A DNA stretch of 64,000 nt. Source: Undibacterium sp. 5I1. GTDB taxonomy: Bacteria; Pseudomonadota; Gammaproteobacteria; Burkholderiales; Burkholderiaceae_D. Below are positions 7,551-50,541 of the stretch, in pieces (position 1 is the stretch's first letter; each line of letters starts with the position of its first letter). The stretch is taken from the NCBI RefSeq assembly GCF_034314085.1, contig NZ_JAVIWI010000001.1, forward strand, positions 3,968,001 through 4,032,000, given 5' to 3'. A program made the translations under genes and the position numbers. The notes beneath the pieces are model-generated. The model had not been told where the DNA came from and did no database searches. It saw nothing but the letters and a program-made list of their open reading frames with translations.

Positions 7551-7578
7551 AAAAAAGGACAGCATGCTGTCCTTTTTT
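7551..7578 (+). terminator. intrinsic terminator after the SH3-domain gene
   Basis: Perfect 28-base palindrome with GGACAGCA/TGCTGTCC stem flanked by six A and six T, so it could work in both directions. A repeat-family copy begins at its last T. Confidence 0.85.
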
Positions 7579-7664
7579 ATATACTCCCCTCATTTATAAG
7601 AAAATATGCCCTATTGTCCAGTGAATATTTGGACGGTTAATAAATACTGTATGGGGTATATATC
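7578..7664. repeat. 86-bp palindromic repeat, copy 2
   Basis: Forward copy. The left end TATATACTCCCC abuts the terminator U-tract, the core has ATTGTCCA and TTGGAC, and the right end is GGGGTATATAT. It lies between the SH3 gene and gpsA. Confidence 0.85.
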
Positions 7665-7703
7665 CAATCTTTATCTGTATTTTCACAACGAGGTCAGGCA
7701 ATC

Positions 7704-13515: not shown

Positions 13516-13550
13516 AAAAAAAAGCGCGCAAGGTTTAGTTGCACGCTTCT
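13516..13550 (-). terminator. intrinsic terminator of dksA
   Basis: On the minus strand the stem AAGCGTGCAA/TTGCGCGCTT has one mismatch and is followed by eight T. It lies 20 bases past the dksA stop. The remainder of the 12944-13570 gap shows no gene or repeat that I can recognise. Confidence 0.75.
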
Positions 13551-13570
13551 TTATAAAGTTTGGCTATGGC

Positions 13571-18207: not shown

Positions 18208-18374
18208 GCTTAAAACTTTATAAATGTTCGGTAGCGAATTTGCATAATTTTATGCAAAAAATGATGCAAAGATGACTGCAGGGTTTTGGTGGTACTGACT
18301 GCCGCAACTACATTGGTAAATACGTTCGCAACTACATTGGCAACTACCTTACAACTCAATGCTATGTGCATGTC

Positions 18375-19226
18375 TTAAATATCAATTTCACCTTCGTACA
18401 CAGTGACTGCCGGACCGCTTAAAAATACTGGCTGGCCTTCACCTTGCCAGGCAATTGACAGCTCGCCGCCCTGCATACTGACACGGACAGGCGATGTCAG
18501 CAAACCACGGCGTATACCAGCGACTGCTGCCGCGCAGGCACCAGTGCCGCAGGCCAGAGTCTCGCCAGCGCCGCGCTCAAATACGCGCAGACGAATATGC
18601 TGGGCATCTAGCACTTGCATAAAACCAGCATTCACCCGTTTAGGGAAGCGCGGGTGATGCTCAATCACGGGGCCGTCAAGAGCGACCGCAGCGGTGCCAG
18701 TATCGTCCACCACTTGCACTGCATGCGGATTGCCCATAGAGACGACTGAGAACAGCGCTGCTTTGCCATTGATCAATAAAGGCCAGAGTGAGTCGTGTCC
18801 TTGGGGTATCGCGTTCAGTCCGGCGGCATCAAATGGTACGGCAACTGTATCAAGTATCGGTGCGCCCATGTTGACGGTAATACGACCGTCAGCCTCTAAG
18901 CGCGGCTCAATAATGCCCGACATGGTTTCTACTTTGATGGCAGAGTTAGAGGTCAGTTTTTTGTCGATCACAAAACGCACAAAAGCGCGTGAGCCATTGC
19001 CGCATTGCTCGACTTCGCCGCCATCAGCGTTATAAATACGGTAACGGAAATCAATCCCTGCGGTGTCAGAGCGTTCGACTACTAGGATTTGATCGGCACC
19101 AACACCAAAGCGGCGATCAGCCAGCAATTTCCACTGCGCTGGCGTAAAAGAAATAGCTTGATTGATGGCGTCAATCACAACAAAGTCGTTACCTGCGCCA
19201 TGCATTTTGGTGAATTTGAGTTTCAT
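18375..19226 (-). CDS. dapF: diaminopimelate epimerase
   Basis: Converts LL- to meso-diaminopimelate for lysine and peptidoglycan. It is a PLP-independent epimerase of 283 residues with the two catalytic Cys: Cys75 in [10 protein letters not shown] and the second near residue 225 in [11 protein letters not shown]. The N-terminal [11 protein letters not shown] is the family signature. It heads the dapF-DUF484-xerC run. Upstream, 19227-19661 carries a repeat copy and no recognisable gene. Confidence 0.97.
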
Positions 19227-34857: not shown

Positions 34858-36198
34858 ATGAGCTTCACCAAAAAATTTCTCTCTTCTTCTATCTTGTCCG
34901 TGATTGATCAGGGCATGCTCAGTGCGCTGAATTTTGCGATTGGCATGCTATTGATACGTCTGGCGACCAAAGAGGATTACGGTTTATACGGCCAATTGTA
35001 CGCTGGTGGTTTGCTGGCCGGCCTGGTAGTGGATTCCTGGATTGCCGGTCCTTTGACGACGGTTGCCAGTGCAGTGCAAGAGAGCACCAGAAAAGCCTTG
35101 TTACGTCACTACTGGATACGCCAGATCTGGAGCACGCTGTTGATGGGAGGACTGGCATTTGTGATTGTCGCCTTTATCCCCGCAGCGACGCACAACAGTC
35201 AGCCTGGCTATTTACTGGCGATTGCTTTTGCGGCGTATGTGATTGGTAATGGCGTGCGTGAATACGGTCGTACTGTTGGTTTTATTCAATCGGACATTTT
35301 TGCCGTACTGCGTCAGGATATTGTTTATGTGACTTTGGTCGCACTGAGTTTGCTAGCGCTGTATTTGACAGATCATCTTGGTCTGGAATGGATTTTTACT
35401 TGTCTGGCGAGCTCCTCAATCATCTGTTCATTACTCGGCATCGGACGTTTAAAAGCCAATACTAGTGACCACAGCGACCATCAAAATCAGACCTTAAGTG
35501 ATACCGCAAATGAGACACTGAGTGGCGCAAAAATTTCCCAAGTCCAGGAAGATTTGCAGCAAGTAATTGTCGATCATCAGGACACCATTAGCGGGCATGG
35601 CCGCTGGGCGATTTTAGGTGTGCTGGTCGGCTGGCTATCTAACTACAGCTATGTATATTTGTCCGGCGCGTGGTTAGGCGTGGCGGCGATTGCGGATCTA
35701 AATGCCTCACGTACTTTATTAATGCCCATACCGCTGGCAGTGGCAGCATGGTCGCGGATCGCGCGGCCAGAAGCTAGCCGCCTGATGGCGGAGCAAAACT
35801 GGACTGGTCTGCGCAAGCTAACCTTGTTTTCCATCGCCGGGATTGAGCTGGTGGTACTGGCATACGTTGGCGTAATGCTGCTGATGTTGCCCTGGCTAGA
35901 GGCGCATGTGATCGGTTCCAAATACAGCGGGCTTGATCCCCTGGTGATGCTGTGGGGCGCCTACTTTGCGATCAACGCCGCACGTTGGGTCGGTACCTCT
36001 TGGCTAAGCAGCGGCGGCGCTTTTCGTTCCCTGTTTTATCTGGGGAGCGTGACTTTGGTACTGGTATTGGGCATCACCTCATGGACCATACCGCACCTCG
36101 GCACGTCGGGCGCGATTACCGCGTTGATCGCGGTAGAAGTGTTTGAACTCTTCGTAGTGTGGAAATATATTCTGCCGGGTTTGCAGAAGAACGCGTGA
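34858..36198 (+). CDS. polysaccharide flippase / Wzx-like membrane protein
   Basis: Integral membrane protein of 446 residues with about 12-14 helices and the MATE/MOP-type N-terminus (ATKEDYGLYGQLYAGGLLAG). It should move an undecaprenyl-linked glycan or related lipid-linked unit across the inner membrane. A hydrophilic loop (about residues 195-240, Asp/His/Gln-rich) interrupts the helices. It is transcribed towards the convergent hydrolase gene, not as part of that operon, but lies next to it, which suggests involvement in the same surface-glycan pathway. This is inference. Confidence 0.78.
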   Translation: MSFTKKFLSSSILSVIDQGMLSALNFAIGMLLIRLATKEDYGLYGQLYAGGLLAGLVVDSWIAGPLTTVASAVQESTRKALLRHYWIRQIWSTLLMGGLAFVIVAFIPAATHNSQPGYLLAIAFAAYVIGNGVREYGRTVGFIQSDIFAVLRQDIVYVTLVALSLLALYLTDHLGLEWIFTCLASSSIICSLLGIGRLKANTSDHSDHQNQTLSDTANETLSGAKISQVQEDLQQVIVDHQDTISGHGRWAILGVLVGWLSNYSYVYLSGAWLGVAAIADLNASRTLLMPIPLAVAAWSRIARPEASRLMAEQNWTGLRKLTLFSIAGIELVVLAYVGVMLLMLPWLEAHVIGSKYSGLDPLVMLWGAYFAINAARWVGTSWLSSGGAFRSLFYLGSVTLVLVLGITSWTIPHLGTSGAITALIAVEVFELFVVWKYILPGLQKNA

Positions 36199-36221: not shown

Positions 36222-38210
36222 TTATGGGAAGCGCTTAGCCAGATGCTGCGCCAGCATGGTCGCTAGGTAAGTTTGCGACCACATTGGTGTGAAGGTATGG
36301 TCAACACCCTTGATCACTTCAATTTTAAGACTGTCTCTGTGCTGCAAAAGATGGGCATTGCTGCCCAGATGTTTGGTCATCAGATCGATGCTGCTGTCGT
36401 TGGCATCAAACACAAATACTAATTCCACTCCACGCGCCTGCATGGCCTTAAAGTTTCTGGCGACAGGTCCTAGCAGGTGATGAGTTTTCATAAAATGCGC
36501 TAAACGATGTCGTATATGATCGAGCAGTTTTTGTATCAATTTTTTAGCAAGATTTCTAAAAATCTTACGAGAGGCAATTTTGTCTCTGAGCATGCGACGC
36601 CAGGTATTGCCATGCGTCGCCGCTTTAAAATAAAACTGGGTTGATTTAAAGGTCGCTGCTTTTTTCGTCTGTATTACGTTACCGGCACGCCAGTGAAACG
36701 TTAGCTGATTCATCAATATCAGACCGGTCACACGCGGGTCGTGTACCGCTGCCAGATACGACAGATACGCGCCAGAACATAAGCCCGCCAGCACAAAGCT
36801 GGGTTGTCCGTAAGCTTGCTGCATAAACTGCATGGCAGAGCCGATATCCTCCACGCCTTGCAATCCGTGTACATCATTTTCCTGCTCATCTGGTGTTGGT
36901 TGACTATAGCCAATGCCTCGCTTGTCATAACGCAAAACAGTAAAGCCTTGCGCAGCCAGTGTGCGCGCCATCGTCACATATAAGCGATGATTGCCGACGC
37001 GATGATTGGCACCGACATTGGTGAGGATAATGGCTGGTCGCGCAGTGTCGTTTTTGTCTTTGTCTTTGTCTTTGTTGATTCCGATATCGGTGCTGGTGGC
37101 GGTCGGGCTAGGCTGGGTAACGATGCCAACCATGCCATCAAACTGCACGATTTCTTCCTGCAATACTTGTTCGCCATGCCGGATACGACAGCGCTTGGTC
37201 AGCATGTTTGCTGAGGTAGATGTTGTATCGTTCTGCTGATCTTGTAATGAGCCTTGCTGCAACGGGATTTGCTGTATCAACCATTGGCACATTTCTGCCC
37301 AGATCGCATGCGGTACACTGGACTCATGCGCATCTTCGGTCATCATTGCGGCATAACCTGGCGTGGTAATCAGATGCATCTGATATTCATCACGCCGCCA
37401 GGTCGTCGCCAGTTTGGCCTCTTGACCAGAGATATCATCACGCGCGGCGATCATAACGGCAGCCGGTGGCGATGCCAGATTGAGGATGTTTAATTCGCTT
37501 AAAGCTGCACGCGTGCTGGCGCAAAATGTATAGCCCGTCAGCTCATCATCACTGACGCTATGTTCAGATGGTTTTGCTTCATTACTTTTATGCGCGGCGC
37601 CAACGCCACTCATGCCGCGCAAGACCATCAGTTCACGCACATAGGCTCGACCAGATATTACCGGTGCCAGCATTAGCAGCGCAGGTGAGGCTAACTCAGT
37701 TGCCAGGCCTGCTGCGAGTAAAGCGCCCATGCGCATACCAAACAAACTGATCTGCTCCACACCGGACAAGCGGCGTAGTTGTTCTGCCGCCTGACGTATA
37801 TTGTGCTGCCAGGCAGCCACCCGCGCCGTATCACTCTGGGCAGAGTCACCGCAGCCATCATAATCAAAAAAACAAACCGGAAAGCCAGCCTCTGCCAATT
37901 GCATCGCCAAGTGCTTATACGAAAGATACGAGACCATATACTCATGCCCAAAGGGCGGGCAAAGTACCACGCCAGAATTGCGCATCGCTGTTTTAGGCGG
38001 GTGATACCACGCTAACAAAGGCGTATCTGCATCGCCAAACCAGAATGCCTTTGCGGCATGCTGCTCTGTATTCATTGGCGATGTTGTCGGGATGTCTGCC
38101 GCCGTAAATGCGGGTCTAAATACCGACGTATGGATTGATGTGAGCGTCGATGCGTGTGTCGATTCTGACGACGGCGCATCGGCTAGTAACTGCTTGTCTG
38201 ATGTCGTCAT
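36222..38210 (-). CDS. double alpha/beta-hydrolase protein, exosortase-associated-hydrolase-like
   Basis: 662 residues with two tandem alpha/beta-hydrolase domains (about 50-315 and 340-660). Domain 1 has PPFGHEYM and the nucleophile-elbow position GMRMG at 158-162, with Arg160 where Ser is expected. Domain 2 has RYDKRGIGYS and GLCSG at 476-480, with Cys478 as the elbow residue, plus a late HTF His. Both resemble hydrolases 2 and 1 of exosortase-A systems, so this may be a fusion of the two. Between the domains is a (KD)n run encoded by TTTGTC repeats at about 37050-37075. The ATG overlaps the GH2 stop by four bases. It is last in the carrier-protein operon. Confidence 0.75.
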   Translation of the reverse strand: MTTSDKQLLADAPSSESTHASTLTSIHTSVFRPAFTAADIPTTSPMNTEQHAAKAFWFGDADTPLLAWYHPPKTAMRNSGVVLCPPFGHEYMVSYLSYKHLAMQLAEAGFPVCFFDYDGCGDSAQSDTARVAAWQHNIRQAAEQLRRLSGVEQISLFGMRMGALLAAGLATELASPALLMLAPVISGRAYVRELMVLRGMSGVGAAHKSNEAKPSEHSVSDDELTGYTFCASTRAALSELNILNLASPPAAVMIAARDDISGQEAKLATTWRRDEYQMHLITTPGYAAMMTEDAHESSVPHAIWAEMCQWLIQQIPLQQGSLQDQQNDTTSTSANMLTKRCRIRHGEQVLQEEIVQFDGMVGIVTQPSPTATSTDIGINKDKDKDKNDTARPAIILTNVGANHRVGNHRLYVTMARTLAAQGFTVLRYDKRGIGYSQPTPDEQENDVHGLQGVEDIGSAMQFMQQAYGQPSFVLAGLCSGAYLSYLAAVHDPRVTGLILMNQLTFHWRAGNVIQTKKAATFKSTQFYFKAATHGNTWRRMLRDKIASRKIFRNLAKKLIQKLLDHIRHRLAHFMKTHHLLGPVARNFKAMQARGVELVFVFDANDSSIDLMTKHLGSNAHLLQHRDSLKIEVIKGVDHTFTPMWSQTYLATMLAQHLAKRFP

Positions 38211-40846
38211 GTGATGCTGCTTTCCAGATGGTTTCCAGCATCACGGTCGTTGGTGTTCGCAATCGAAATCGAAATCTTGCACGGACTGATGGCATTGAGC
38301 GCTGTAACTGTCCCTTGGATCTTGTCGGCACTTGCCAGATTTTTCTGGGTAATATCATTTTTGCTGAGGTGCGTCAGACGTGTCAGACGAATATGACGCT
38401 CTGTACCAGGTGCAAGGTGGAAGAAATTATCCTCTGGCTGATATCCAGTGACCTCAATTGCCAGCGACAGCGTAAGTTTTCGGGTTGAGATATGTAGCAT
38501 CACATGGTCATCATCCGTCTGCACAAAATGCGCTTGTAAGCCTAGATCGCGCTCGACCGGATTACTTAACTGACCGATGCCCAATGGGAAATAGAAGGCC
38601 TCGCAATGCGCTGACGACGGTGCAGTTTGAAACCGCGCTACCGCCACATTATGTCCGGGCGGTCCAAAGCGATAGGCATAGGTGGTATCAAAAAAATGTT
38701 CCAGCATACTATCCGCACGTACCTGCATCACGCTATGTGGTGCCAGATCAATCTGGAGTTGTCCTTGCGCGATACGAGTCTCGCCATGCCGGTATAAATC
38801 GAGTGATAGTGTGCCTTGGTAAGCGACCGCGCTATCATTCACGAGATGCAGCGCAAGGCCGTTTAAACCCTCATCCGTCATTAATAGGCTTAACGGTACC
38901 ATCGCTCTTTTTGCGTAGTAATAAGCGGCTTTGGGTTTGCCGCTGGCATCAATCAACCCCCAGCCGGCACCTAGCCAAAGATCACGCAAAAACCAGATCA
39001 AAGCACCGTGGCAACTTGATCCTGCACGCCGCCATTCAGCCAGAGTTTGTGCCATCACTTCGCCAGTTGTCACACGTGCCAGCGCCAGATAACGCGTCGG
39101 GTCGGCATAGCGTAAGCGCGCCGGATCGAGCTGAAATAATTGCGCCATATAGTGATCGCGCACATCCTCAAAATCCCAGCCTGTACCACTATCACGCGGT
39201 ACCCGTTGCTTCCAGACTGGATGTGTACCGGGTGCTTCGCCATTTTTTAACAGTGCCTCTATCGTGCTGTCATCTGGCATATTTGAGAAGCCCAGACACT
39301 CAGAGGTAAAGCGCAGACCAGCGCGACGCGCATCCTCCAGTGGCCGTAAATAAGCACCAACGCCAAAATAATGCGCAACTCCCGCATCCAGCTGGAATGG
39401 CATGACGCCGCCGCTAGGGCTGGAGGCAATATAGGTGGCATCTGGCCGCATGGCATTACACAACTGCGGCAAACTCTCTGCAAAAAAATGATTGCGCCAT
39501 AGATTTGGCGCTACACCAAGCATTGCTGCCTGTTGCTCTATCTCTGAACTGCCGCATAACACCGCGATGCACGGGGAGAGTTGTGTGCGGTCTAAAAATT
39601 GTGTCGCTTCTTGGCGGATGTTGTCAGAAAAAGCAGGATCATCCACCGGGTAATCCATATTGGCGAACATAAAATCCTGCCACACCAATAGTCCAAGTTC
39701 ATCACATAGCCGGTAAAAGTCATCGCTCTCATACAACATCGTGCCGCCGACCCGCAGCATATTCATACCAGCATCGCGGGCTAATGTCAGCGTTGGTAAT
39801 AGATCAGATGCATCGCCAGCGAGTGAGATCAGATCCACCGGTGTCCAGCAGGCACCGCGACAAAATACCGAGACGCCATTCACATACAGATGGAAGTCGC
39901 CATCATTTTGCCGCACCTCTATCGTCCTGAAGCCGAGCTTGCCTAAGTCAAACAGGTATTGTTGTGTCCCAATAGTGACTTCAATATGTGCCCGGTATAA
40001 CGCAGGAGTGCAGGCCGGATTGCCGTGCGTATGTGGCCACCAAAGCTGCGCTTGTGCAATCTGCATCTCTCCTTGCGCCAGTAGCTGATGCATTTCATTT
40101 TCTTTTTTTGCCAGTGTGAGCGCAAGACGTTGATCGCCTAAGCATAAACTAATGGCTAAAGTAGCGCTATCAACCGACACGGACGTATTAATTTCGATTG
40201 TTGCATTGACGATACCGTCGCCATCTCGCACGCTGCTTCGGATATCGGCATGGATGATCTTGACTACGCTCGCAGCTTCGATAACCAAAGGCCGATATGG
40301 TCCGACTGGCGCAACCGGCGGCGACCATCCGGGAATACGACCAAGCAAGCTGGTGCGCAACCAGCGTAATTGCTGTTGTTCTACTAGCTTAGTGCGCCAG
40401 CGTGCGCGTGGACGCCGGATTTTTAAAGTTGCATTGACTGATTTAAAACGCAGACTGATTACGCCGTTTGTGCCGCCGCTCTGGTGTGCCTGCATGTCTA
40501 CACGATATTGCCTGAACATATTGTCCGCGCTGAAGAGCAGTGCATCATTCCAGTACACATCGACCAAACTTGCCAGCCCATCAAACCGTAAACTGGCAGC
40601 TTGCGACAAACTGCATTCACAACGGAACCAGTAATCGTAATCATCATAATTGGTTGCACCGTAGGCAAATTCTTTTGCCTCACGTTGTGCCGATGCCACC
40701 GTGCCCGGTACTTGGGCGGCTTTCCAGATCAGCGCATTTAACTCAGACGGTAATACAGACGCATCTGCAAACTGGCCTGTCTCGACCTCGGCATATTGCC
40801 ACTCAGCGTCCAGGATGGTTTGACCGGGATGAGTGATTTTGGCCAT
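38207..40846 (-). CDS. glycoside hydrolase family 2 protein, beta-mannosidase-like
   Basis: 879-residue cytoplasmic enzyme with an N-terminal jelly-roll sugar-binding domain (to about 190; YDYWFRCECSLS), an immunoglobulin-like domain (about 195-310) and a TIM barrel (from about 325; ACWTPVDL, LRVGGTMLYESDDFY). The acid/base site reads LCGSSEIEQ, keeping Glu but with Ser where clan GH-A normally has Asn before it. The nucleophile region is FTSECLGF. Together with the absent signal peptide, this makes the true substrate unclear. It overlaps the DUF1839 and hydrolase genes, so it is translationally coupled. Confidence 0.8.
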   Translation of the reverse strand: MAKITHPGQTILDAEWQYAEVETGQFADASVLPSELNALIWKAAQVPGTVASAQREAKEFAYGATNYDDYDYWFRCECSLSQAASLRFDGLASLVDVYWNDALLFSADNMFRQYRVDMQAHQSGGTNGVISLRFKSVNATLKIRRPRARWRTKLVEQQQLRWLRTSLLGRIPGWSPPVAPVGPYRPLVIEAASVVKIIHADIRSSVRDGDGIVNATIEINTSVSVDSATLAISLCLGDQRLALTLAKKENEMHQLLAQGEMQIAQAQLWWPHTHGNPACTPALYRAHIEVTIGTQQYLFDLGKLGFRTIEVRQNDGDFHLYVNGVSVFCRGACWTPVDLISLAGDASDLLPTLTLARDAGMNMLRVGGTMLYESDDFYRLCDELGLLVWQDFMFANMDYPVDDPAFSDNIRQEATQFLDRTQLSPCIAVLCGSSEIEQQAAMLGVAPNLWRNHFFAESLPQLCNAMRPDATYIASSPSGGVMPFQLDAGVAHYFGVGAYLRPLEDARRAGLRFTSECLGFSNMPDDSTIEALLKNGEAPGTHPVWKQRVPRDSGTGWDFEDVRDHYMAQLFQLDPARLRYADPTRYLALARVTTGEVMAQTLAEWRRAGSSCHGALIWFLRDLWLGAGWGLIDASGKPKAAYYYAKRAMVPLSLLMTDEGLNGLALHLVNDSAVAYQGTLSLDLYRHGETRIAQGQLQIDLAPHSVMQVRADSMLEHFFDTTYAYRFGPPGHNVAVARFQTAPSSAHCEAFYFPLGIGQLSNPVERDLGLQAHFVQTDDDHVMLHISTRKLTLSLAIEVTGYQPEDNFFHLAPGTERHIRLTRLTHLSKNDITQKNLASADKIQGTVTALNAISPCKISISIANTNDRDAGNHLESSIT

Positions 40847-41907
40847 CAGCCGTCCACCTTACCGTTCGCCCTGGATTGCTCGCCCACAAATATCGTCAGT
40901 TGATCTATCCCGGATTGCCAGTGCTGCGCCATTTCTATCAAGCCAGGCGTCAGATCAACTGGCTTTTTACCCATGACGGCGCGGGCGGTTTTTAGCAGCA
41001 AAGTTTTAGTTGCATTTGAGATGGCTTCAAAATGCGCTGCCGCAGTGTTTAATTGTTCTGCCGCATCATCAGCCATGACTAAAGACTGCTGCAACCAGCG
41101 CAAATAACTGGCGCCGATGCTAAACCCCGCACCCAATTGCCGCAGAGTGGCAAAGGCATAGGCATGATATGCCGCCAGACCCTCGGTTTTTAAACGCTCT
41201 ACATCAGCGATAAACACAGGCATAAACAGGCTGATGGGATTATGTTTTGGGCGGCGCGCCAGATGCTTTGCCAGCAAAGAGATAGAAATTATTGCCAGCG
41301 CCTGATCGTCAGCGTAGTGCAGGTGATCGAGTCGTACAAACTCGGCAAACAGTGGCATAAACGTCGCATCATGCGGTGCGCCAACCCGGAAGGTTTTAAC
41401 AAAATCCTCACCGCTCAACTGGTGATAACTGCTGTTATGAAAATAGCCTAAACGTTGCTGTTCTAAATCAATTTCTTGAATCGCAATCGTGGTCTTAACG
41501 TGATTACTACGGTAATCGGTACCCGAGGTATCGGGCAAATAAAAAGAATCGGCTTCTGTCAGTACCAGACGACCGCGTTGTAATTGTGTACAGGCGTTTT
41601 CTAACAAAGAGCGCCAGACATTCAGCTCTTGTACATCAATGCCATACAGCGCAAATAAATCTTCGTGCGGCGGTTTGTAGAAGGTCCATTGGTCGCCATC
41701 AAAATCCAGCGCAAATACCATGGACATACAGGCAACGGGATTCAGTTTTAAGCTATGTAAAACCTCGATCCATACATCGATATAGCAATTGGTTTCTACC
41801 CAGGCGCGGTCAGATCCATGCAAGCTATGCTGCTGATAAGTTTGATGATCCATATCGCCAAGCGCTTGAAAACACGTGACGGATGAAGGATGTAGAGGTG
41901 GCTTCAT
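40846..41907 (-). CDS. DUF1839 family protein
   Basis: 353 residues. The segment WVETNCYIDVWIEVLHSLKL followed by DFDGDQWTFYKPP and LYGIDVQELNVWRSL matches DUF1839 as I remember it, a family without a known activity. The Cys in NCYIDVWIEVL could be catalytic, since the family is sometimes grouped with papain-like folds, but this is speculative. It overlaps the aminoacyl ligase by four bases (ATGA) and the GH2 gene by one. Its location fixes it in the aminoacyl-carrier-protein pathway. Confidence 0.85.
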   Translation of the reverse strand: MKPPLHPSSVTCFQALGDMDHQTYQQHSLHGSDRAWVETNCYIDVWIEVLHSLKLNPVACMSMVFALDFDGDQWTFYKPPHEDLFALYGIDVQELNVWRSLLENACTQLQRGRLVLTEADSFYLPDTSGTDYRSNHVKTTIAIQEIDLEQQRLGYFHNSSYHQLSGEDFVKTFRVGAPHDATFMPLFAEFVRLDHLHYADDQALAIISISLLAKHLARRPKHNPISLFMPVFIADVERLKTEGLAAYHAYAFATLRQLGAGFSIGASYLRWLQQSLVMADDAAEQLNTAAAHFEAISNATKTLLLKTARAVMGKKPVDLTPGLIEMAQHWQSGIDQLTIFVGEQSRANGKVDG

Positions 41908-42815
41908 GGCCAGAGTATGTCGCGCACAGTTTGTGGCCAGTGTGCGGTATCCATGCCGTGAGTTTTAAACAAGGCCATGACAATCCGTTCCAGACCAAAA
42001 CCAAGGCAGGCGGTATGTGCAGTAGTGCCATCGGCTGTTTGGATATGAAATAATTTTCCGAAATGATCTTGATGGTAATTGAAGGAGCAAACCGCGGTAG
42101 GCTTCTCTTGCGAGATCACCGGTATCACGACTTCAAACTTCAATTGTTGTTCCCGCTGATTGGCTGCCAGCATGCGACCACCGCGCCCGAAGAAAGGATC
42201 GGAGGCGACTTCAGAGCGCGCAGGTAAACCGAGCGACAGTAAAATATCAATGCCGCGTTGCAGCCATATATTACGCCAGGCGATGACCATATCGGGGCTA
42301 CCTGCACGGACAAATTCCCGCACGCGGAAGGATTGCATACGGGTTGGTTCTGGCGATGGCTCGTTACGAAATACCCAATTTTGCATGTCAACTAAGCGAC
42401 CATTCTCAGGCAGCGTACCGCTAAAGCTGGGGTAAACCGGATAACAGGCGGCAGGGGTCAAACACACCGCCGTCATGGTTTGTAGATGCGTCCACGGGCG
42501 ACCTTCATGCACACATTCGCTGAGTTCTTTATGCTGGGCTTCGTTGCCGGTAAAACTAAAAATAGTGCCAGCCAGTTGCGGGAAAGAATCCAGAAATTCG
42601 CTTTGTTCCAATACCTTGCGATCAAGGCAAGGAGGGAAGGACATTTTAGTTGCACCATCAGGCATCGCCAGGCGGCTTACTAAGTCATCAAATTGGCGCA
42701 ATACATCTTCAAACATCGGGCCACGGCCAAAAATACCTTGTACACCGACAGGAATAATATGACCTGCAGCGACCAGATCATCGGTCAATAACTCGGGAGA
42801 AAAATCAATTGACAT
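41904..42815 (-). CDS. amino acid:[carrier protein] ligase (seryl-tRNA-synthetase-like)
   Basis: 303-residue class II aminoacyl-tRNA-synthetase core without a tRNA-binding arm. Motif 2 is VFRNEPSPEPTRMQSFRVREF and motif 3 is GFGLERIVMALF. Three residues, Cys124, Glu167 and Cys270, fit the Cys-Glu-Cys zinc set of atypical seryl-tRNA-synthetase homologues characterised in Bradyrhizobium, which adenylate Gly or Ala and load it onto the phosphopantetheine of a carrier protein. The Glu-to-Cys spacing of 103 agrees with that set. A carrier protein gene lies two genes upstream, so I infer the same reaction here. The amino acid cannot be predicted safely. Confidence 0.88.
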   Translation of the reverse strand: MSIDFSPELLTDDLVAAGHIIPVGVQGIFGRGPMFEDVLRQFDDLVSRLAMPDGATKMSFPPCLDRKVLEQSEFLDSFPQLAGTIFSFTGNEAQHKELSECVHEGRPWTHLQTMTAVCLTPAACYPVYPSFSGTLPENGRLVDMQNWVFRNEPSPEPTRMQSFRVREFVRAGSPDMVIAWRNIWLQRGIDILLSLGLPARSEVASDPFFGRGGRMLAANQREQQLKFEVVIPVISQEKPTAVCSFNYHQDHFGKLFHIQTADGTTAHTACLGFGLERIVMALFKTHGMDTAHWPQTVRDILWP

Positions 42816-42869
42816 CGTTTGTCCTTTTAGTTTTTTTTAGAGATTGTTAATTTTTCTTTTGGCCGAATT

Positions 42870-44063
42870 TTAGTCATCTTTTAATATCAGCAATAAATTA
42901 GCATTGGTCGCTAAGATGCGATCATTGCCAACCATTAATGCGGCTGAATGAGCATCACGCAGATGACGACTCATACTGAATTTACTATCGTTTTTGTAGC
43001 CTAAAATTCCGCAGATTAATAAAGCTTTCCCCACAATCTGTGGCAGGATTTGCGATGTCTCTACTTTGAGATTATTGATTTTTAGCGCATACGGCATGGA
43101 GGATAAAATCCCTTGCGCTGCATCGGGTGCGGCAGCGAGTTGTTCGTATTCAATCAGGCAGGCTTGCACGGAAGTGCGCATCGTTTGCAAGGTGCAGACT
43201 AACTCGGCAAGACGCAATGCAGTTGGTGGCGTAGTACCTGGATTAGCTCTTGCCTGAGCTCTCACAAACGCCCGTGCTTTATTGACTGCCGCTGCTGCAA
43301 TACCTTGCCAGATGCCACTCCATAATAAGTGCGATACCGGTACTACCGTTACGCTAGACATGTCCGCAAACGGTGTCGCTATAATTTGCTCTGCAACACC
43401 ACTCGCGCTGAGCAAAAATGGTGGGCTGCAAGTGCCGCGCATACCCATGGTGTCCCACTCGCCTTTTTGTTCTAAGCTGTAGTCGGCTTTGCGGACCAAA
43501 ATTAAGGACTGATCATTATTCGCGGCGTCTTCTGAGCGTCTTGCTGTCACCAATAAGTCATCTGCCTGAGCGCCGTAAGAAATCGTAGTCGCATTTTTAA
43601 CTAACTTAAATTGCGTACTATTTTGTTTGTCATCTTGTTGGACGTGACAGCTACTGCGTCGCATTTCTCCACCAACGCCAACCTCAGATGTGACTGAGGC
43701 AATCAGATATTGGTGGGTCACCAGGTCGCGTAAATACTGCTGATACCAAGGATGATCAGATGCATGCCGGACCAGAGTAATCACCTGTATCTGGTGCATC
43801 GCAAATACCATCGCGGTAGCAGAGCAATGCTGGCCTAACGCTTCACAAATCTCCACCAGAGTACTTAGGCTAGCGCCCGCACCACCCAGAGAGGCAGGAA
43901 TATAAGCGCTTAATAATTGCGCGTCTTTTAGCGCAGTAATTGCCTCTTGCGGGAAACGACTATCCTTATCAACCGCATCTGCATGAGTGGCTGCAATTTC
44001 TTTAGCGATGGACTTAGCTTGTGCAATCAGTGTGGATGCGGATGCAGAGGTGGATGCAGGCAT
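42870..44063 (-). CDS. acyl-CoA dehydrogenase family protein
   Basis: FAD-dependent desaturase fold of 397 residues. The N-terminal helical domain (to about 115), middle beta domain with LIASVTSEVGVGGEMRRSS and C-terminal helical domain with LLICGILGYKND are recognisable. In carrier-protein pathways, such enzymes oxidise carrier-bound aminoacyl or acyl groups. Here it follows the carrier gene by 116 bases and precedes the aminoacyl ligase by 54. The substrate is inferred as an aminoacyl thioester; the catalytic base cannot be identified by eye. Confidence 0.85.
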   Translation of the reverse strand: MPASTSASASTLIAQAKSIAKEIAATHADAVDKDSRFPQEAITALKDAQLLSAYIPASLGGAGASLSTLVEICEALGQHCSATAMVFAMHQIQVITLVRHASDHPWYQQYLRDLVTHQYLIASVTSEVGVGGEMRRSSCHVQQDDKQNSTQFKLVKNATTISYGAQADDLLVTARRSEDAANNDQSLILVRKADYSLEQKGEWDTMGMRGTCSPPFLLSASGVAEQIIATPFADMSSVTVVPVSHLLWSGIWQGIAAAAVNKARAFVRAQARANPGTTPPTALRLAELVCTLQTMRTSVQACLIEYEQLAAAPDAAQGILSSMPYALKINNLKVETSQILPQIVGKALLICGILGYKNDSKFSMSRHLRDAHSAALMVGNDRILATNANLLLILKDD

Positions 44064-44179
44064 AAGTGAGTAGTGGACTAAAAGTATTACGTGAAATAAG
44101 TGAGTAAATAAGTGAGTAAATAAGAGGGTGGAGTTTCTAAAAAAATTCCTACATCTTATCTACTTCAATACTAAAACCT

Positions 44180-44419
44180 TCAGGCAGTCAGTTCCTGTAT
44201 GGCAGCGTCCATTGCGGCCATACTTTCAAACACGCTACGCTTAAGCATGCGGTCAGGGAACTCCAGATCAAATGCATCTTCCAGTGCCAGCATGACATTG
44301 ACACTGGCATGTGATGTCATGCCCGCTTCATACAAATCTGCATCATCTGCCAGCGTGGCGATATCAACAGCCAGCCGCGCATGGTCTTTTAAAACTTGAC
44401 GAATTTTTTCTATGCTCAT
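44180..44419 (-). CDS. carrier protein of the aminoacyl ligase system
   Basis: 79-residue acyl/aminoacyl-carrier-like protein. The phosphopantetheine Ser is probably Ser36 in EAGMTSHASVNVMLALE, which has the GMTS shape of aminoacyl carrier proteins rather than the GxDSL of fatty-acid ACP. Acidic, with helix 2 following (ALEDAFDLEFPD). It is the first gene of the operon and faces the ABC transporter genes divergently. No strong Shine-Dalgarno is visible before the ATG. The 44420-44846 gap is non-coding and should contain promoters for both directions. Confidence 0.85.
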   Translation of the reverse strand: MSIEKIRQVLKDHARLAVDIATLADDADLYEAGMTSHASVNVMLALEDAFDLEFPDRMLKRSVFESMAAMDAAIQELTA

Positions 44420-44846
44420 GATTTTTTTTGAAAATTAAAATGCTGGATGCGTCTTTGATTGTAGCTGGAGTCAGGGTCGCATCAAGAAGCGCCCCAGAAT
44501 TAATTTCTGCATGGAAATTAATTCTATTAAAAATCGCTTGATGACGTAGTGACTCAAAATTACTCACAAATCATAACGGTAAATTTATCGCTAACTTGAT
44601 GAAGAGCATATCAGATTGCTATGTTCTCCATAGTTAAACATCGTCAATTGCAAGCGCTTGTCACTTGCGTACAACGATATAGAAAATCGCTGTCCAACTC
44701 TTCTGACCATCATCGACCAAACTGCTGATGCCCTGAATTTATCGTTTTGTTCCCCGATCTTTGCACTTTGTCTTGTAGCGCTGGAGCATTTGGTGCATCC
44801 CATTTATTCTGATTTCCATCCTAAATTGAAAAGACGAGTAAACGCC

Positions 44847-45722
44847 ATGCTAGAACTCCACAATGTCGTAAAAACCTATAACAAGACTGTGACGGCGGTT
44901 GATGATGTTTCTATGCAGTTGAGCAGCGGCGTGCTGGGACTGATCGGTCATAACGGTGCTGGCAAGACGTCGCTGATGCAGATGATAGCGACATTGACCA
45001 AGCCGACTAGTGGTCAAATTTTATTTGACGGGATTGATATTGCCAAAAAGCCGAATGCGATACGCCAGCGCTTAGGCTTTTTGCCGCAAGACTTTGGCGT
45101 CTACCCCAACCTGAGCGCGCTAGAATTTTTGCAGTATTTTGCAGCCTTAAAGGGTGTCCGCGATCCGTCTGGTAGCAGGATCAGACAATTGCTGGAGATG
45201 GTCAATTTGCATGAGCATGCGCATCGCTATGCCTCGACGTTTTCAGGTGGTATGCGCCGTCGCCTCGGGATTGCACAAGCTTTGCTGAATGATCCTGATA
45301 TCTTGATTGTCGATGAGCCGACAGCAGGTCTGGACCCGGAAGAGCGATTACGGTTTCGCCAGCTATTGTCAGAAATCGGCTTTAAAAAATTAGTGATTTT
45401 ATCGACCCATATTGTCTCCGACATTGAGAACATGGCAAGCCATCTGGCGATCATGCGCAAGGGTAAATTGATCGCTTACGATACCCCGGATAGTTTTGTA
45501 AAACATGGGCGCGGCCACATCTGGTCAGCCACAGTAAACACTCAGGAATATGAGTTGCTGAGCAAGCGTGTTCAGGTACTTCAGGTACAAAGACATGAAT
45601 CCCAGATCCACTTGCGGATTGCGCATCCGCATTCACCTTGTAATGGCGCACTGGTTGCGGAGCCTAGTCTGGAAGAAGCCTTGATGGCACAGCAGTATGC
45701 GATTCAGGAGCTGGCAGCATGA
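44847..45722 (+). CDS. ABC transporter ATP-binding protein
   Basis: 291-residue ABC ATPase. Walker A GHNGAGKTS (about 34-42), the Q-loop LGFLPQDFG, the signature SGGMRRRLGIAQALL, Walker B ILIVDEPTAGLDPEER and the switch His in LSTHIVSD are complete. The frame extends 63 codons upstream without family similarity, so I start at the ATG at 44847. The C-terminus after about 215 is a short regulatory tail. It overlaps the permease gene by four bases (ATGA). It belongs to the export-type ABC-2 class by similarity, and it starts divergently from the carrier protein operon. Confidence 0.92.
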   Translation: MLELHNVVKTYNKTVTAVDDVSMQLSSGVLGLIGHNGAGKTSLMQMIATLTKPTSGQILFDGIDIAKKPNAIRQRLGFLPQDFGVYPNLSALEFLQYFAALKGVRDPSGSRIRQLLEMVNLHEHAHRYASTFSGGMRRRLGIAQALLNDPDILIVDEPTAGLDPEERLRFRQLLSEIGFKKLVILSTHIVSDIENMASHLAIMRKGKLIAYDTPDSFVKHGRGHIWSATVNTQEYELLSKRVQVLQVQRHESQIHLRIAHPHSPCNGALVAEPSLEEALMAQQYAIQELAA

Positions 45723-47287
45723 CCGCCTATGTTTTGTGGACGATGATACAAAGTGAAGTGCGCTTGCGTACCCGCCGCATCAGTAGCATCGTCGCGATCT
45801 TGGCGGTGGTCGCGATTACCTGGATGATGATTGCAGATCCGATTAGCGGTTCGGTATTGATATCCGTAGGCGATGCGAGGGTGGTTTACAACAGTTTATG
45901 CCTGGCGCTGGGTAGCTCTTTACTGGCGAATTTATTTTTTGGTCTGGGTGGTTTTTACCTGGTACGTGGTCGTATGAACGACGATTTTCGTAGCGGCTGC
46001 GGCAGTGTGCTGGCGACGATGCCCATCAGTAACAGCGTATTTTTAATAGGGCGCTGGCTGGGTGCAGTCGCTTATTTGTGTGTGCTGATATTGGCATTGC
46101 TGGCCACTATTCTGGTCTTGCATTTGTTGCGTGGCGAAGGGCCGATACAGTTGCTGGTGTATCTGAAAACCTATGTAATCGTATTTTTCCCTTCCGTCAT
46201 ATTCGCCTGCAGCATGGCTTTATTTTGCGAAGCGTTTGCCCCTTTATCTGGCAAGGCCGGTGACGTCGCGTATTTTTTTGTGTGGATGCTGCAAAGCACA
46301 GTACCGATTGTAATTGCTGATCATGGCTCCGTCACATCATGGACGCCGGCAATGATATTTGATTTTTCTGGAGTGGCGACATCCAATCTAGGGTTTCTGG
46401 CGATGTTTCATACCTCGCATTTTTCTATTGGTATTTCTGATTTTGATAAGACCTTGCCTCCTGTGGTGTTAGAGGGCGAGTTCTGGTCAACAACGGTAGT
46501 GCTGACGCGCATTGCTGGTGGAGTGATCGCGGCATTGCCTGTGCTGCTGGCGATCGCCTTGTTCCATCGGTTTTCTCCGGACAAAATCAAGCTTTCTGTC
46601 CGCCGCCAGTCTTGGTCTTTGATTGGGTTTGCCAACCGCTTGTTGCGTCCACTGACCAAACTCACACGACCGCTATTTGCTTTGGCTGCCAGCCTACCTG
46701 GCTTTGCCGGTCAGGTCGTAGCGGAGCTGGCTTTGAGCCTGGCGTCGAGTCCCATCATGAGCGCTGGACTTATATTCGCAATATTGGCGGGTTGCACCGT
46801 GGGCAGCGCACTGCTAGGTGGCTTTGTCCTGATTGTGGTGGCATTTTGGGGCGTACAAATCAGTGACCTGAGTGTGCGTGATTACCAGTCGGATACTGAG
46901 AGCATGACAGCCGCAGTCATGGGTGGTGCGTCGATGCGCTACTGGCGGCAAATTGTTGCCAGCTGCTTACTCGGCTTGCTATTAACTGCTCCGGTAATTG
47001 TGCGTTGGGCTGGCCACGATATGTTGCGCGCGGTCAGCTTGGTCAGTGGAATTGTTGCGATTGCTGCCATTGCCAATTTGTTGGGACGGATAACCAGAAC
47101 TTCCAGAACTTTTATTGCTCTATTTCTATTTGGCTTATACCTTGCCACGCAGATTAAAGATGTCCCGTTTCTGGACGTAGTTGGTGCTAATGGGGTCGCA
47201 ACGATGTCATCGGTTGTGATGCAATCTCTGTTTGGTTTGATTATGTGTGTATTTGCTAAGGGCTACAATCGTTGGCGAGTAGCATGA
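45719..47287 (+). CDS. ABC transporter permease
   Basis: 522-residue integral membrane protein with about 12 predicted helices. It begins with a cytoplasmic basic loop (LRTRRISS) and a first helix (VAILAVVAITWMMIADP), resembling ABC-2-type permeases fused as two half-units. No substrate clue in the sequence. It is translationally coupled to the ATPase. With no solute-binding protein in the same operon (one begins 282 bases later, separated by a repeat), export is more likely than import. Possible cargo is the product of the neighbouring carrier operon, which is inference. Confidence 0.82.
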   Translation: MTAYVLWTMIQSEVRLRTRRISSIVAILAVVAITWMMIADPISGSVLISVGDARVVYNSLCLALGSSLLANLFFGLGGFYLVRGRMNDDFRSGCGSVLATMPISNSVFLIGRWLGAVAYLCVLILALLATILVLHLLRGEGPIQLLVYLKTYVIVFFPSVIFACSMALFCEAFAPLSGKAGDVAYFFVWMLQSTVPIVIADHGSVTSWTPAMIFDFSGVATSNLGFLAMFHTSHFSIGISDFDKTLPPVVLEGEFWSTTVVLTRIAGGVIAALPVLLAIALFHRFSPDKIKLSVRRQSWSLIGFANRLLRPLTKLTRPLFALAASLPGFAGQVVAELALSLASSPIMSAGLIFAILAGCTVGSALLGGFVLIVVAFWGVQISDLSVRDYQSDTESMTAAVMGGASMRYWRQIVASCLLGLLLTAPVIVRWAGHDMLRAVSLVSGIVAIAAIANLLGRITRTSRTFIALFLFGLYLATQIKDVPFLDVVGANGVATMSSVVMQSLFGLIMCVFAKGYNRWRVA

Positions 47288-48463: not shown

Positions 48464-49273
48464 TTATTTTTTTATTTGTCCGATGAGTTGTTCAATATAA
48501 TCCCCGTCAACATCGCTAAACAGGACACGTACGGGATACCATTCCAAAGCTGGTGCCAACCACAAATCTATATGCTGGCTTTTAGAATTCGGTGGTGGCA
48601 ATTTAACGACGTGAACGGTCATTAGATTGCCCATCCCTGTAGCTAGAGTTTCGCGTTGCATGACTTTGAAGGACCAGGTTTCTGCGTCGCGTCTGCCTGC
48701 AACAAACATTTTCCATTCACTGCCGGGCTTAAATTTGTCACCGGCAGCGCGTGCTAGTCCTACTAGTTGCCAGGTCGCACTGCTACGATCTTGTTCTCCA
48801 CCTTTGATCGGATAGCGTTCTGCTGACTCACTAAAAGTGATACTTTTTTTATCGCCTTTGCGGTTGAAGTTAGTAATAGTTTCTGGTTTTCCTAGGCGTT
48901 TTTCATTAAATTTTTCTGGTGCTAAACCATAGCTATCGACGCCGCCCACGCTACTAACATCCAGAATTTTTCCGATTAACATGGCACGAGTTTCCGTGAT
49001 GATGCTATATCTTTGATTGCCTGTTTTCCACATCACACTCGCGTCACCGCTGAGTGTGATACCACTTTGCTTCGCTTTGATGGTGTATTCCAAGGTCGCA
49101 GAAGGAGGCAAATTAATACTAGACTTAGCCGGTGTATCAGCCAAGCTTGCTGTGCTGAATATTCCGCTAACCATACCGCAACACAGACTTGCAAATACGA
49201 GCAAGCGACGAGATTTTGGAACTGCCGGAATAGATATTGTTGAGGCAAATAAGTTGATACGTTTCAGGTACAT
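48464..49273 (-). CDS. exported DUF3108 protein (paralogue 2)
   Basis: 269 residues. A signal peptide ends near ASLADTPAK, then a DUF3108 beta-rich domain with YTIKAKQSGITLSGDASV and WLAPALEWYPVRVLFSD. Function unknown in the family, which is common in betaproteobacteria. It starts 11 bases after the stop codon of its larger paralogue, so the pair forms an operon. The two proteins match in the order of key features (SEAN/ETRA..., WYPV), indicating an old tandem duplication. Confidence 0.85.
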   Translation of the reverse strand: MYLKRINLFASTISIPAVPKSRRLLVFASLCCGMVSGIFSTASLADTPAKSSINLPPSATLEYTIKAKQSGITLSGDASVMWKTGNQRYSIITETRAMLIGKILDVSSVGGVDSYGLAPEKFNEKRLGKPETITNFNRKGDKKSITFSESAERYPIKGGEQDRSSATWQLVGLARAAGDKFKPGSEWKMFVAGRRDAETWSFKVMQRETLATGMGNLMTVHVVKLPPPNSKSQHIDLWLAPALEWYPVRVLFSDVDGDYIEQLIGQIKK

Positions 49274-49284
49274 ATTTATCTTTC

Positions 49285-50541
49285 TTAATTTAATTGAGGC
49301 GTAATTTTGGTCACAATCTGTGTAGTGATTGCACCGTTGCTTTCTGTGTTGCGCACTTGTACCGGATACCAGTTTTTATCTGGTGCAAACCAAATATCAA
49401 GCTGAGAATTGTAGGCACCCGCTCGTGGTGGACGCACTACGTGCCAAGTATTCAATGTACCAAGTTTGTTTTTTAACTCTTCTTGCCCAACGATGACGAA
49501 TTGGAAGTTAGTCGCGTCGCGTTCTTCAGCTACTTGGATGACGATTTCTCGCCCGACACGAAACTGTGTCGGATCGGCATAACCTATGCCTGCCAGTTGC
49601 ATCAATACCGAGGCTTTATCTTGCGAGCCATCAACCAACGGTATTGATTTATTTGAAGATGAAAAACTGACTAACTTAGTCTCATAATTAAAGTGGATCG
49701 CTGTTTCTGAGCGATTGCGTCTGGATTCGCTGCTAGTGACAGGCGCAATCCCAGCGTCGGTGATCTTGCCGTCGCTATTGATTTTCAGCAAATTTAGGGT
49801 GGTTACCAATAAATTTAAGCCCGCGCTTACTGACATGCTGTAGGCGTTATTGCTGACATGCCAGTTGATTTCGCCAACACCATAAAAGGGGCTGCCGTTC
49901 GCCTCTGATCTGACCAATTGTAATTCTAGTACTGCTGATGGAGGTGGGGTTACTTTAAATTGTGCTGATGGAAGGTTGTCTGTACCAGTATTTTTAGTTG
50001 CACTGGCTACTTGCTCTAAAGAGGGGATCGCAGGCGGCGGAGTAGCGCTTGTAATTGTGCCGGTAGGTGAACCTGTAGTTGAATTTACAGCCCCAAAAGT
50101 TGATGTAGATGCTGCCAGATTTGGCGCAGGATTTTTTATCGGAGTCACTGCCAGATAGCCTCCCGTGGCTTCGTAAATAGCAGTTTCTTGACTACCATCG
50201 GCAATTTGTCCTGGCAGTGGTGGCGTTGCTGCAGGCTGTTGCGCTTGCGAGGGCAAGGGGTCTGGTTGTGGATCTGGAGGCGGTATTGCTTGCTTTTTTT
50301 CAAGCTTAATCACTTTTTCTGGCTTAGCCTCAACTTTGGTGGCAACTTCAGTTTTTGCCTGAATTTGATTGACGTATAACAAGCTCGGTTTTATCTCAGA
50401 ATTTTTGATATCCACACCTGGTATCTGATCCGGAAGCGAATTAATCCAATGCAATGCCATGACATGCAGCAAGATTGCGGCAAGCACAAAAGCAAAAATT
50501 TTACGGTCGGGGCGTAGTCGTGTCAGCAGATTGGACGTCAT
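49285..50541 (-). CDS. DUF3108 protein with TonB-like N-terminus (paralogue 1)
   Basis: 418 residues. An N-terminal transmembrane anchor (about 14-33, FAFVLAAILLHVMALHWI) precedes a long Pro/Lys/Ala linker (50-200) with KKQAIPPPDPQPDPLPSQ, similar in style to TonB. The C-terminal part (about 205-418) is a DUF3108 domain with WHVSNNAYSMSVSAGL and IWFAPDKNWYPVQV. Anchored in the inner membrane and extending into the periplasm by composition. It is upstream of the secreted paralogue in one operon. Role unknown. Confidence 0.82.
   Translation of the reverse strand: MTSNLLTRLRPDRKIFAFVLAAILLHVMALHWINSLPDQIPGVDIKNSEIKPSLLYVNQIQAKTEVATKVEAKPEKVIKLEKKQAIPPPDPQPDPLPSQAQQPAATPPLPGQIADGSQETAIYEATGGYLAVTPIKNPAPNLAASTSTFGAVNSTTGSPTGTITSATPPPAIPSLEQVASATKNTGTDNLPSAQFKVTPPPSAVLELQLVRSEANGSPFYGVGEINWHVSNNAYSMSVSAGLNLLVTTLNLLKINSDGKITDAGIAPVTSSESRRNRSETAIHFNYETKLVSFSSSNKSIPLVDGSQDKASVLMQLAGIGYADPTQFRVGREIVIQVAEERDATNFQFVIVGQEELKNKLGTLNTWHVVRPPRAGAYNSQLDIWFAPDKNWYPVQVRNTESNGAITTQIVTKITPQLN

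Follow-up and report, generated by a model that had tools for sequence, protein, structure and literature searches.

The closest described relative of the system studied here was outlined by Iyer et al. in 2010 (PMC2922099, note added in proofs, section 17), who noted a gene neighbourhood in which an acyl carrier protein (ACP), a redox enzyme, a conserved uncharacterized protein and a glycosidase are grouped around a class-II SerRS paralogue, and who predicted that an amino acid is ligated as an amide to the amino group of a cell-surface sugar. We analyzed a 64,000-nucleotide stretch, hereafter the window, of the 4.88 Mb genome of Undibacterium sp. 5I1, in which six minus-strand genes spanning positions 36222-44419 encode a carrier protein, an acyl-CoA dehydrogenase-like flavin enzyme, an amino acid:[carrier protein] ligase, a DUF1839 protein, a GH2 glycosidase and a fused double alpha/beta hydrolase. 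This operon belongs to the kind outlined in 2010, for which a function was thus already predicted. It has all parts of that neighbourhood when DUF1839 is counted as the uncharacterized open reading frame (ORF), and the predicted chemistry is the same; Atu2574, the 2010 example of the uncharacterized protein, we infer to be a DUF1839 protein. A preliminary description of the window had stated that no published role was known for the set. This does not stand, given the 2010 prediction and a later study (JBC 2023, PMC10318531) that classed DUF1839 as papain-like, with a C(T/S)H triad, and suggested glycan processing. The accessible text of the 2010 note names no double hydrolase, phosphopantetheinyl transferase or flavin reductase, nor a fold for the uncharacterized protein. 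No tested function or product of the gene set was found in the literature searched, which was mostly without subscription papers.

In lincosamide biosynthesis, CcbD loads carrier-bound proline onto the Cys of a Cys-His-Glu triad, from which the proline is transferred to a thiooctose at its amino group (PMC12945683). CcbD and LmbD (9dks; PMC12945683) resemble the present system in that DUF1839 matches the fold and in that a carrier-bound amino acid reaches an amino sugar through a catalytic Cys, the latter being a feature of CcbD; they differ in showing no sequence similarity to DUF1839 and in relying on an adenylation domain, whereas the module has a tRNA-synthetase-like ligase. CtaG has been proposed to act as a peptidyl transferase between carriers (PMC6772006). 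Butirosin biosynthesis by BtrI, BtrJ and BtrH is alike in logic, with a papain-like enzyme moving an ACP-bound acyl group onto an aminoglycoside (PMC10318531). Among 46 DUF1839 members, no Pfam BtrH_N match was found. The remaining enzymes of the butirosin pathway differ from those of the module. Exosortase A loci (ACP, hydr2, hydr1, ligase_PEP_1, dCO2ase_PEP1) share with the operon the hydr2-hydr1 order and a carrier-like ORF, with an AMP-forming ligase in one scanned locus, but use an AMP-binding ligase and a pyridoxal phosphate (PLP) decarboxylase in place of the SerRS-like ligase and the flavin enzyme. Bll0957 (amino acid:[carrier protein] ligase 1, PDB 3mey) is of the same ligase family and has a neighbouring flavin enzyme, bll0958; its counterpart among our loci, L107, has a divergent ACP gene, a flavin enzyme and a ligase, and is without DUF1839, GH2 and hydrolase.

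We propose that the operon makes an aminoacylated sugar, a product that would decorate or accompany exported polysaccharide in many hosts, a reading to which we give a little better than an even chance. Possibly new relative to the literature are the match of DUF1839 to the CcbD, CtaG and AziU3 fold, the loss and replacement of its Cys, the phosphopantetheinyl transferase gene beside the carrier gene, the hydr2-hydr1 pair shared with exosortase loci and the lost bases of the dehydrogenase. The fold match, the Cys replacement and the exosortase link turn the loose 2010 prediction into a stepwise scheme with named residues. If true, the scheme would give a function to PF08893, suggest one for the exosortase-associated hydrolases and imply aminoacyl modification of sugars across a wide range of bacteria.

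Conservation of the module

Loci were collected in two samples. The first consisted of the best 80 of at least 584 ligase relatives in bacterial and archaeal genomes, found with an alignment of 13 ligases as query; it was picked by ligase and is biased toward relatives of the window. Six protein profiles were applied to the 54 of these loci that have at least 6.5 kb on either side of the ligase gene (well-flanked loci). The second sample consisted of 18 stretches of 14-20 kb picked by DUF1839, 15 from an even draw of 398 genomes of the phylum and three from a draw of 300 Burkholderiales genomes, the two draws having four genomes in common. In this sample, the presence of ligase and DUF1839 is given by selection, and species overlap with the 80 loci is possible.

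All six genes occur together in 46 of the 54 well-flanked loci and the first five in 50; single-gene counts are 54 for the carrier, 53 for DUF1839, 52 for the flavin enzyme, 51 for GH2 and 47 for the hydrolase. All 18 loci of the second sample have carrier, flavin enzyme, ligase and GH2, and 12 have the hydrolase within the fetched stretch; in one further locus (G119), a hydrolase-like ORF lies just beyond it. The commonest gene order is that of the window (22/54), while elsewhere the hydrolase gene is inverted or displaced, or hydrolase-GH2-carrier stand divergent from flavin enzyme-ligase-DUF1839. Gene order is shuffled among lineages while the genes remain together.

The set also crosses wide taxonomic distances. 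Titles among the 80 loci include Burkholderiales, Azospirillum, Bosea, Nevskiaceae, Myxococcales, Gemmatimonas and one actinomycete bin; ligase identity to the window is 99% in L022 and 85-89% in L023-L030, seven of these last eight being titled Undibacterium. The first five genes were found on annotated plasmids of Azospirillum, Mycetohabitans, Shinella and two Rhizobium species, with differing flanks and, on three of the five, an annotated alpha/beta hydrolase beside the set. On the Rhizobium gallicum plasmid (L015), nif genes are followed by the module and then by a gene for 1-aminocyclopropane-1-carboxylate (ACC) deaminase, with panD about 5 kb further. A scan of viral contigs found nothing.

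Whole-genome counts gave the same picture from the other side. Among the 300 Burkholderiales genomes, the ligase was over cut-off in eight and DUF1839 was present in seven, all within those eight; among the 398 genomes of the phylum, the ligase was found in 28 and DUF1839 in 16, all within the 28. Every DUF1839 genome has a copy beside the ligase gene (7/7 and 16/16). The converse fails, as 12 ligase genomes of the 398-genome draw are without DUF1839. We conclude that the genes for carrier, ligase, flavin enzyme, DUF1839 and GH2 together behave as a single module, and that the arrangement seen in the window goes beyond chance, since the set recurs in the same or a rearranged order in many genera.

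DUF1839 and the proposed transfer step

An AlphaFold2 model of DUF1839 built from 46 sequences has a mean pLDDT of 94.0 and a pTM of 0.91. When the model was compared with 350,542 PDB chains by Foldseek, 12 chains matched at E<=1e-3: three of AziU3/U2, eight of CtaG and one of CcbD, the CcbD chain being bound to a carrier domain. E-values ran from 3.3e-7 for CtaG to 3.5e-4 for CcbD, with TM-scores of 0.47-0.57. The next match was P210 CD lyase (E 0.034), and the weak ones include a C70 protease (E 0.6). The model thus supports the view that DUF1839 has the fold of carrier-dependent enzymes.

Conservation was counted over unique sequences of at least 80% length (all lengths for ACP), the window included. 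Cys41 and His136 of DUF1839 are each kept in 82 of 83 sequences and His157 in all 83. The operon copy is without the Cys in three genomes, where it is replaced by Arg in L017 (Cupriavidus metallidurans), by Arg in G158 (the genome of L003/L122 and L018) and by Gln in G604 (L124). Each of the three has a second DUF1839 copy that keeps the Cys; this copy is placed elsewhere in G158 and G604, both of the 398-genome draw, and the two copies of L017 lie at 12904-13884 and 17665-18912. From the model and these residues, we predict that DUF1839 is a cysteine-dependent carrier:amine amide synthase acting through Cys41, His136 and His157.

Enzymes around the carrier

The carrier protein scores 109.5 bits with NF005480 (cut-off 72) and 30.4 bits with PF00550, and its Ser36 is kept in 76 of 76 aligned sequences. 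A gene for an AcpS-type phosphopantetheinyl transferase occurs in 31 of the 80 loci and in none of 40 control windows, which were stretches about evenly spaced in four genomes and searched at E<=1e-6. In 30 of these 31 loci it overlaps the carrier ORF or is at most 70 bp away from it, both being encoded on one strand; in the remaining one, L051, no carrier gene was matched. The one AcpS-type representative scanned matched PF01648. No phosphopantetheinyl transferase gene was found in the window, so the enzyme must be encoded elsewhere in this genome, where two PF01648 matches were found, one of them over cut-off.

The ligase passes the curated cut-off of NF005479 (413.8 bits against 357) and scores 253.8 and 246.5 bits against the Bll0957 structures 4h2w and 3mey. 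Cys124, Glu152, Glu167 and Cys270 are invariant (88/88), and we take Cys124, Glu167 and Cys270 to be the Cys/Glu/Cys metal ligands. The family splits into two layouts, a division that may be new. In the short layout (L107-L116), flavin enzyme and ligase genes stand together in the ten fetched loci, eight of which also have a carrier gene in divergent orientation; DUF1839, GH2 and hydrolase were matched in none of the ten. The ligases of this layout form one clade (10/10, support 1.0), whereas in the same tree the module ligases are unsupported as a clade (0.145). L107 is near-identical to Bll0957 (714 bits) and belongs to the short layout, which is why we rejected carrying the amino acid specificity of Bll0957 over to the module ligase. 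The loading of Gly or Ala, which the preliminary description gave as a property of the family, was established with relatives and should not be assumed for the long layout.

Other ligase relatives were noted. Four short-layout loci share a homologous gene 2-5 kb downstream, which in L115 encodes an AMP-binding enzyme. L117, L118 and L119 have distant ligase homologues (131-171 bits), without other module genes except for a weak carrier match in L119, and are possibly a further ligase subfamily. Twenty-two Streptomyces plasmid records carry a ligase relative; Streptomyces is absent from the organism tally of the DUF1839 plasmid search, so its ligases sit in another context. In Bradyrhizobium diazoefficiens, bll0957 and bll0958 are both listed as changed 3.0-fold when phaR is mutated (PMC10888616), which may offer a hint on how the short layout is expressed.

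The flavin enzyme was modelled as well (pLDDT 94.6). Its best Foldseek matches are mixed and comprise the monooxygenases TdsC/DszC, acyl-CoA dehydrogenases and the nitrososynthases KijD3/DnmZ; the window's member matches many acyl-CoA dehydrogenase models, all far under their cut-offs. Positions 378 and 244, read off alignments, are taken here as the two known sites of the catalytic Glu of acyl-CoA dehydrogenases. The canonical Glu is absent at both: position 378 is Val in the window (V/I in 80/80) and position 244 is Ser (S/A/T in 80/80). His90, His245, Trp248, Trp252 and Asn380 are invariant (80/80). A flavin reductase gene is found near the module in seven of the 80 loci and in none of the 40 control windows, the one scanned being PF01613; neither the 18 loci of the second sample nor the window gave a flavin reductase match. 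The preliminary description had pointed out that acyl-CoA dehydrogenases can oxidize carrier-bound aminoacyl groups. The fold agrees with this, but with the catalytic Glu missing, ordinary dehydrogenation is doubtful. We suggest that the enzyme probably acts on the carrier-bound aminoacyl group as a monooxygenase or a non-canonical oxidase. The lost Glu positions, the invariant residues and the mixed fold matches weakly favour oxygenation or imine formation over normal dehydrogenation; monooxygenation was also guessed in the 2010 note (PMC2922099).

The GH2 protein is closest to beta-mannosidases (structure match 2.7e-49). In a profile alignment with 2vjx, Glu435 falls on the CGNNE acid/base and Glu516 on the SE nucleophile region; Glu435 is kept in 72 of 75 sequences (Asp in three) and Glu516 in all 75. 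As this catalytic pair is conserved, the protein should be an active retaining glycosidase or transglycosidase. No signal peptide was seen by eye at its N-terminus.

The double hydrolase scores 118.5 bits with TIGR03101 (cut-off 202.75) and 145.6 bits with TIGR03100 (cut-off 168.45). Both scores are under cut-off, and we therefore treat it as a relative, not a member, of exosortase hydrolases 1 and 2. All 35 aligned hydrolases, including the window's, match both families at E<=0.001. In the C half, which is hydr1-like, Cys478 at the place of the nucleophile, Asp637 and His638 are kept in 60 of 60 sequences; the hydr2-like N half is without a nucleophile, having Arg (48), Gly (11) or Asp (1) at that position.

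Hydrolase 1 proper (TIGR03100) was over cut-off in 21 of 150 Burkholderiales genomes, in 14 of them with a TIGR03099 decarboxylase, likewise over cut-off, within about 12 kb. These 14 exosortase loci were the ones fetched, and all have hydr2- and hydr1-like ORFs and a weak carrier-like ORF (13.8-30.4 bits), the latter sought at E<=1e-2, a laxer threshold than the 1e-6 of the controls. The carrier-like ORF directly precedes hydr2 on the same strand in 13 and is on the opposite strand in one, and hydr2 and hydr1 are fused, as in the module, in two. In L179, the AMP ligase, the decarboxylase and both hydrolases are over cut-offs, and the carrier ORF matches ACP models under cut-offs. None of the 14 loci matches the module's ligase, flavin enzyme, DUF1839 or GH2 profiles. 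The window's genome has no over-cut-off TIGR03100, TIGR03101 or TIGR03099, the exosortase itself not having been searched for. Judged by sequence, the module hydrolase is related to the hydr2-hydr1 pair that stands beside carrier genes in exosortase polysaccharide loci, a link on which no publication was found in the literature searched.

A wider proposal, which we regard as doubtful, is that Gram-negative bacteria have at least two independently assembled carrier-based systems that rebuild amino acids and hand them to sugars of exported glycans, one being the SerRS-like ligase, flavin enzyme and CcbD-like Cys amide synthase of the module and another the AMP ligase and PLP decarboxylase of exosortase A loci. 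The hydr2-hydr1 Cys pair would be common to both, and the group handed over by the module would be an N- or alpha-oxygenated aminoacyl group. If true, this would amount to a general unrecognized principle and an unusual surface chemistry.

In the scheme that we favour for the operon, a phosphopantetheinyl transferase would first arm the carrier. The ligase would adenylate a small amino acid and load it as a thioester, as judged from the chemistry of its relatives. The flavin enzyme would then oxidize the carrier-bound aminoacyl group, N- or alpha-oxygenation or imine formation being likelier than alpha,beta-dehydrogenation. DUF1839 would take the acyl group onto Cys41 and, in the manner of CcbD in the celesticetin pathway, hand it over to an amine, for which a sugar amino group is the likeliest candidate; we infer this transfer from the fold, the conserved Cys and His residues and the gene linkage. 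GH2, probably cytosolic, would trim or rearrange the sugar part, and the Cys-type hydr2-hydr1 protein may edit carrier-bound acyl groups or move them. Finally, the product would in many hosts decorate or accompany an exported polysaccharide.

Surroundings of the module and alternative explanations

Genes around the module were called by a codon-model gene pick, which recovered 445 of 472 module genes, and Pfam was applied to a single representative per neighbour family. Polysaccharide-type genes were counted as Wzc-like, GT4, flippase, O-antigen-ligase-like and OafA-like. They occur in 9 of the 18 loci of the second sample against 4 of the 40 control windows (Fisher p=0.0016), and in 36 of the 80 loci of the first (p=0.00008). 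The neighbour-gene models were trained on the first 86 loci, so the counts in those loci are partly circular. When the two families without a Pfam match (the O-antigen-ligase-like one and an Undibacterium membrane protein) are left out, the counts are 8/18 (p=0.005) and 29/80 (p=0.002) against the same 4/40. The Wzc-like representative passes only PF13614, and the O-antigen-ligase-like representative matches nothing in Pfam. Of liposaccharide genes, which belong to the neighbourhood as predicted in 2010 (PMC2922099), the window has at most the membrane protein gene next to the hydrolase gene. The idea of the preliminary description that an amino acid is built on the carrier and put on a sugar or glycan gains support from the module, the DUF1839 fold and these counts; it is not new, having been predicted in 2010.

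Several observations weigh against an aminoacylated sugar made for exported polysaccharide. A DUF1839 profile of 13 sequences gave no match to PDB sequences at E<=1, Pfam returned no family other than DUF1839 repeatedly among its 46 members, and the TM-scores to AziU3/U2, CtaG and CcbD are low. We therefore speak of a shared fold and a working model, not of membership in the CcbD or CtaG family. The published model of the papain-like proteins has Thr/Ser, not His, at the usual place of the triad (PMC10318531). The solved ligase Bll0957 comes from a layout without DUF1839 and GH2, and the double hydrolase scores under the cut-offs of the families nearest to it. The AcpS-type gene occurs in one of the 18 second-sample loci (L136, of the window's genus) and the flavin reductase in none, and nine of the 18 are without any polysaccharide gene searched. 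Three of the ten short-layout loci have polysaccharide genes (Wzc-like) too (p=0.43 against the module), so that glycan enrichment does not separate the module from the short layout. No amino-sugar synthesis gene recurs widely near the module.

The nine second-sample loci without polysaccharide genes would also suit a small diffusible product, such as a lincosamide- or butirosin-like aminoacyl-aminoglycoside or aminoacyl-glycoside, with the polysaccharide genes reflecting a shared neighbourhood. The module does occur in unrelated contexts, for instance after the nif genes of the Rhizobium gallicum plasmid; CcbD and CtaG, among the closest folds, come from antibiotic pathways; and AMP-binding proteins of one homology cluster were met in 8 of 86 loci, with one member confirmed as like a nonribosomal peptide synthetase (NRPS). 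We nevertheless consider a diffusible product rather unlikely, because no single exporter family turns up widely, control windows hold polysaccharide-type genes less often and the hydrolase has its relatives in exosortase loci. A further alternative is that DUF1839 is a hydrolase (a thioesterase, peptidase or amidase) and that the operon releases a modified amino acid in free form or recycles glycan-derived aminoacyl groups. An ATP-spending ligase and a carrier would be odd in such a breakdown operon, every DUF1839 genome in both draws has the ligase, and no peptidase is among the Foldseek matches at E<=1e-3. This alternative is thus improbable, even though many papain-like enzymes hydrolyse (PMC10318531), a GH2 protein and a double hydrolase in one operon suit degradation and a C70 protease stands lower in the fold list.

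It is most improbable of all that the genes form an ordinary metabolic operon or a chance grouping, with an ACP of fatty acid type and an acyl-CoA dehydrogenase beside unrelated sugar hydrolases. Every gene does have common relatives, and the flavin protein matches many acyl-CoA dehydrogenase models, though under cut-offs. The genes are co-conserved despite shuffled order, however, and the co-occurrence counts already contradict this view; the curated ligase and ACP matches and the loss of the catalytic Glu in the flavin enzyme speak against it too. We thus retain transfer of an aminoacyl group to a sugar, in many hosts linked to exported polysaccharide, as the working explanation.

In the window itself (Table 1), the ORF coordinates confirm the six packed minus-strand genes reported before: counted from the carrier end, the ORF listing gives gaps of 116 and 54 bp, followed by overlaps of 4, 1 and 4 bases. 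The family names given to ligase, carrier and DUF1839 hold as well, the curated cut-offs of NF005479, NF005480 and PF08893 all being passed.

Table 1. Genes of the operon and adjoining genes, in window coordinates.
Feature	Position	Strand	Basis
ACP (carrier protein), 79 aa	44180-44419	minus	ORF; NF005480, PF00550; phosphopantetheine Ser36
Acyl-CoA dehydrogenase (ACAD)-like flavin enzyme, 397 aa	42870-44063	minus	PF02771 50.3 bits, PF00441 26.7 bits
Amino acid:[carrier protein] ligase, tRNA-synthetase-like, 303 aa	41904-42815	minus	NF005479
DUF1839, papain-like, 353 aa	40846-41907	minus	PF08893 358.1 bits (cut-off 22.5)
GH2 beta-mannosidase-like glycosidase, 879 aa	38207-40846	minus	PF22666 53 bits
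Fused double alpha/beta hydrolase, 662 aa	36222-38210	minus	N half TIGR03101-like, C half TIGR03100-like
Membrane protein, formerly named flippase; possible partner outside the core	34858-36198	plus	position only
ATP-binding cassette (ABC) ATPase/permease pair	44658-47287	divergent from carrier gene	

The membrane protein is the sole possible polysaccharide-type gene of the window, in which the Wzc-like, GT4, OafA-like and other neighbour profiles found nothing else. Of the 54 window ORFs of at least 150 amino acids, 20 lying outside the operon were scanned with Pfam, and no glycan-synthesis family was over cut-off. The position of the membrane protein gene beside the operon end is as reported before, but neither Pfam nor NCBIfam gave a match to the protein, even at E<=1, and three relatives are likewise without a meaningful Pfam family; the name flippase therefore rests on appearance. 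The gene neighbours the hydrolase gene in seven loci with Undibacterium titles and also in L136, which belongs to this genus, and the QueC and phosphatase genes beyond it are equally syntenic in those seven. We rejected it as a core part on these grounds, and regard it as a possible partner only. A PF01943 flippase is found near the hydrolase gene in seven other loci, titled Bosea, Kaistia and Pannonibacter, which we take to be alphaproteobacterial.

The ABC pair does start divergently from the carrier gene, as reported before, but its link to the set falls away, the pair being conserved in no other locus. No tblastn match to the permease was found at E<=1e-3 in 192 loci, although in 80 of the 89 module loci that have the carrier gene the sequence reaches 3.5 kb or further on the side in question; the pair was rejected as product exporter for want of a permease match.

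A promoter scan gave about as many hits as chance (13 found, 11.8 expected) and a terminator scan modestly more (15 found, 9.9 expected). In L051, a protein encoded near the module on the plus strand (3510-7937) is NRPS-like, with formyltransferase, adenylation, luciferase-like monooxygenase and carrier domains. In the window, two adjoining DUF3108 genes lie on the minus strand at 48464-50541, outside the module.

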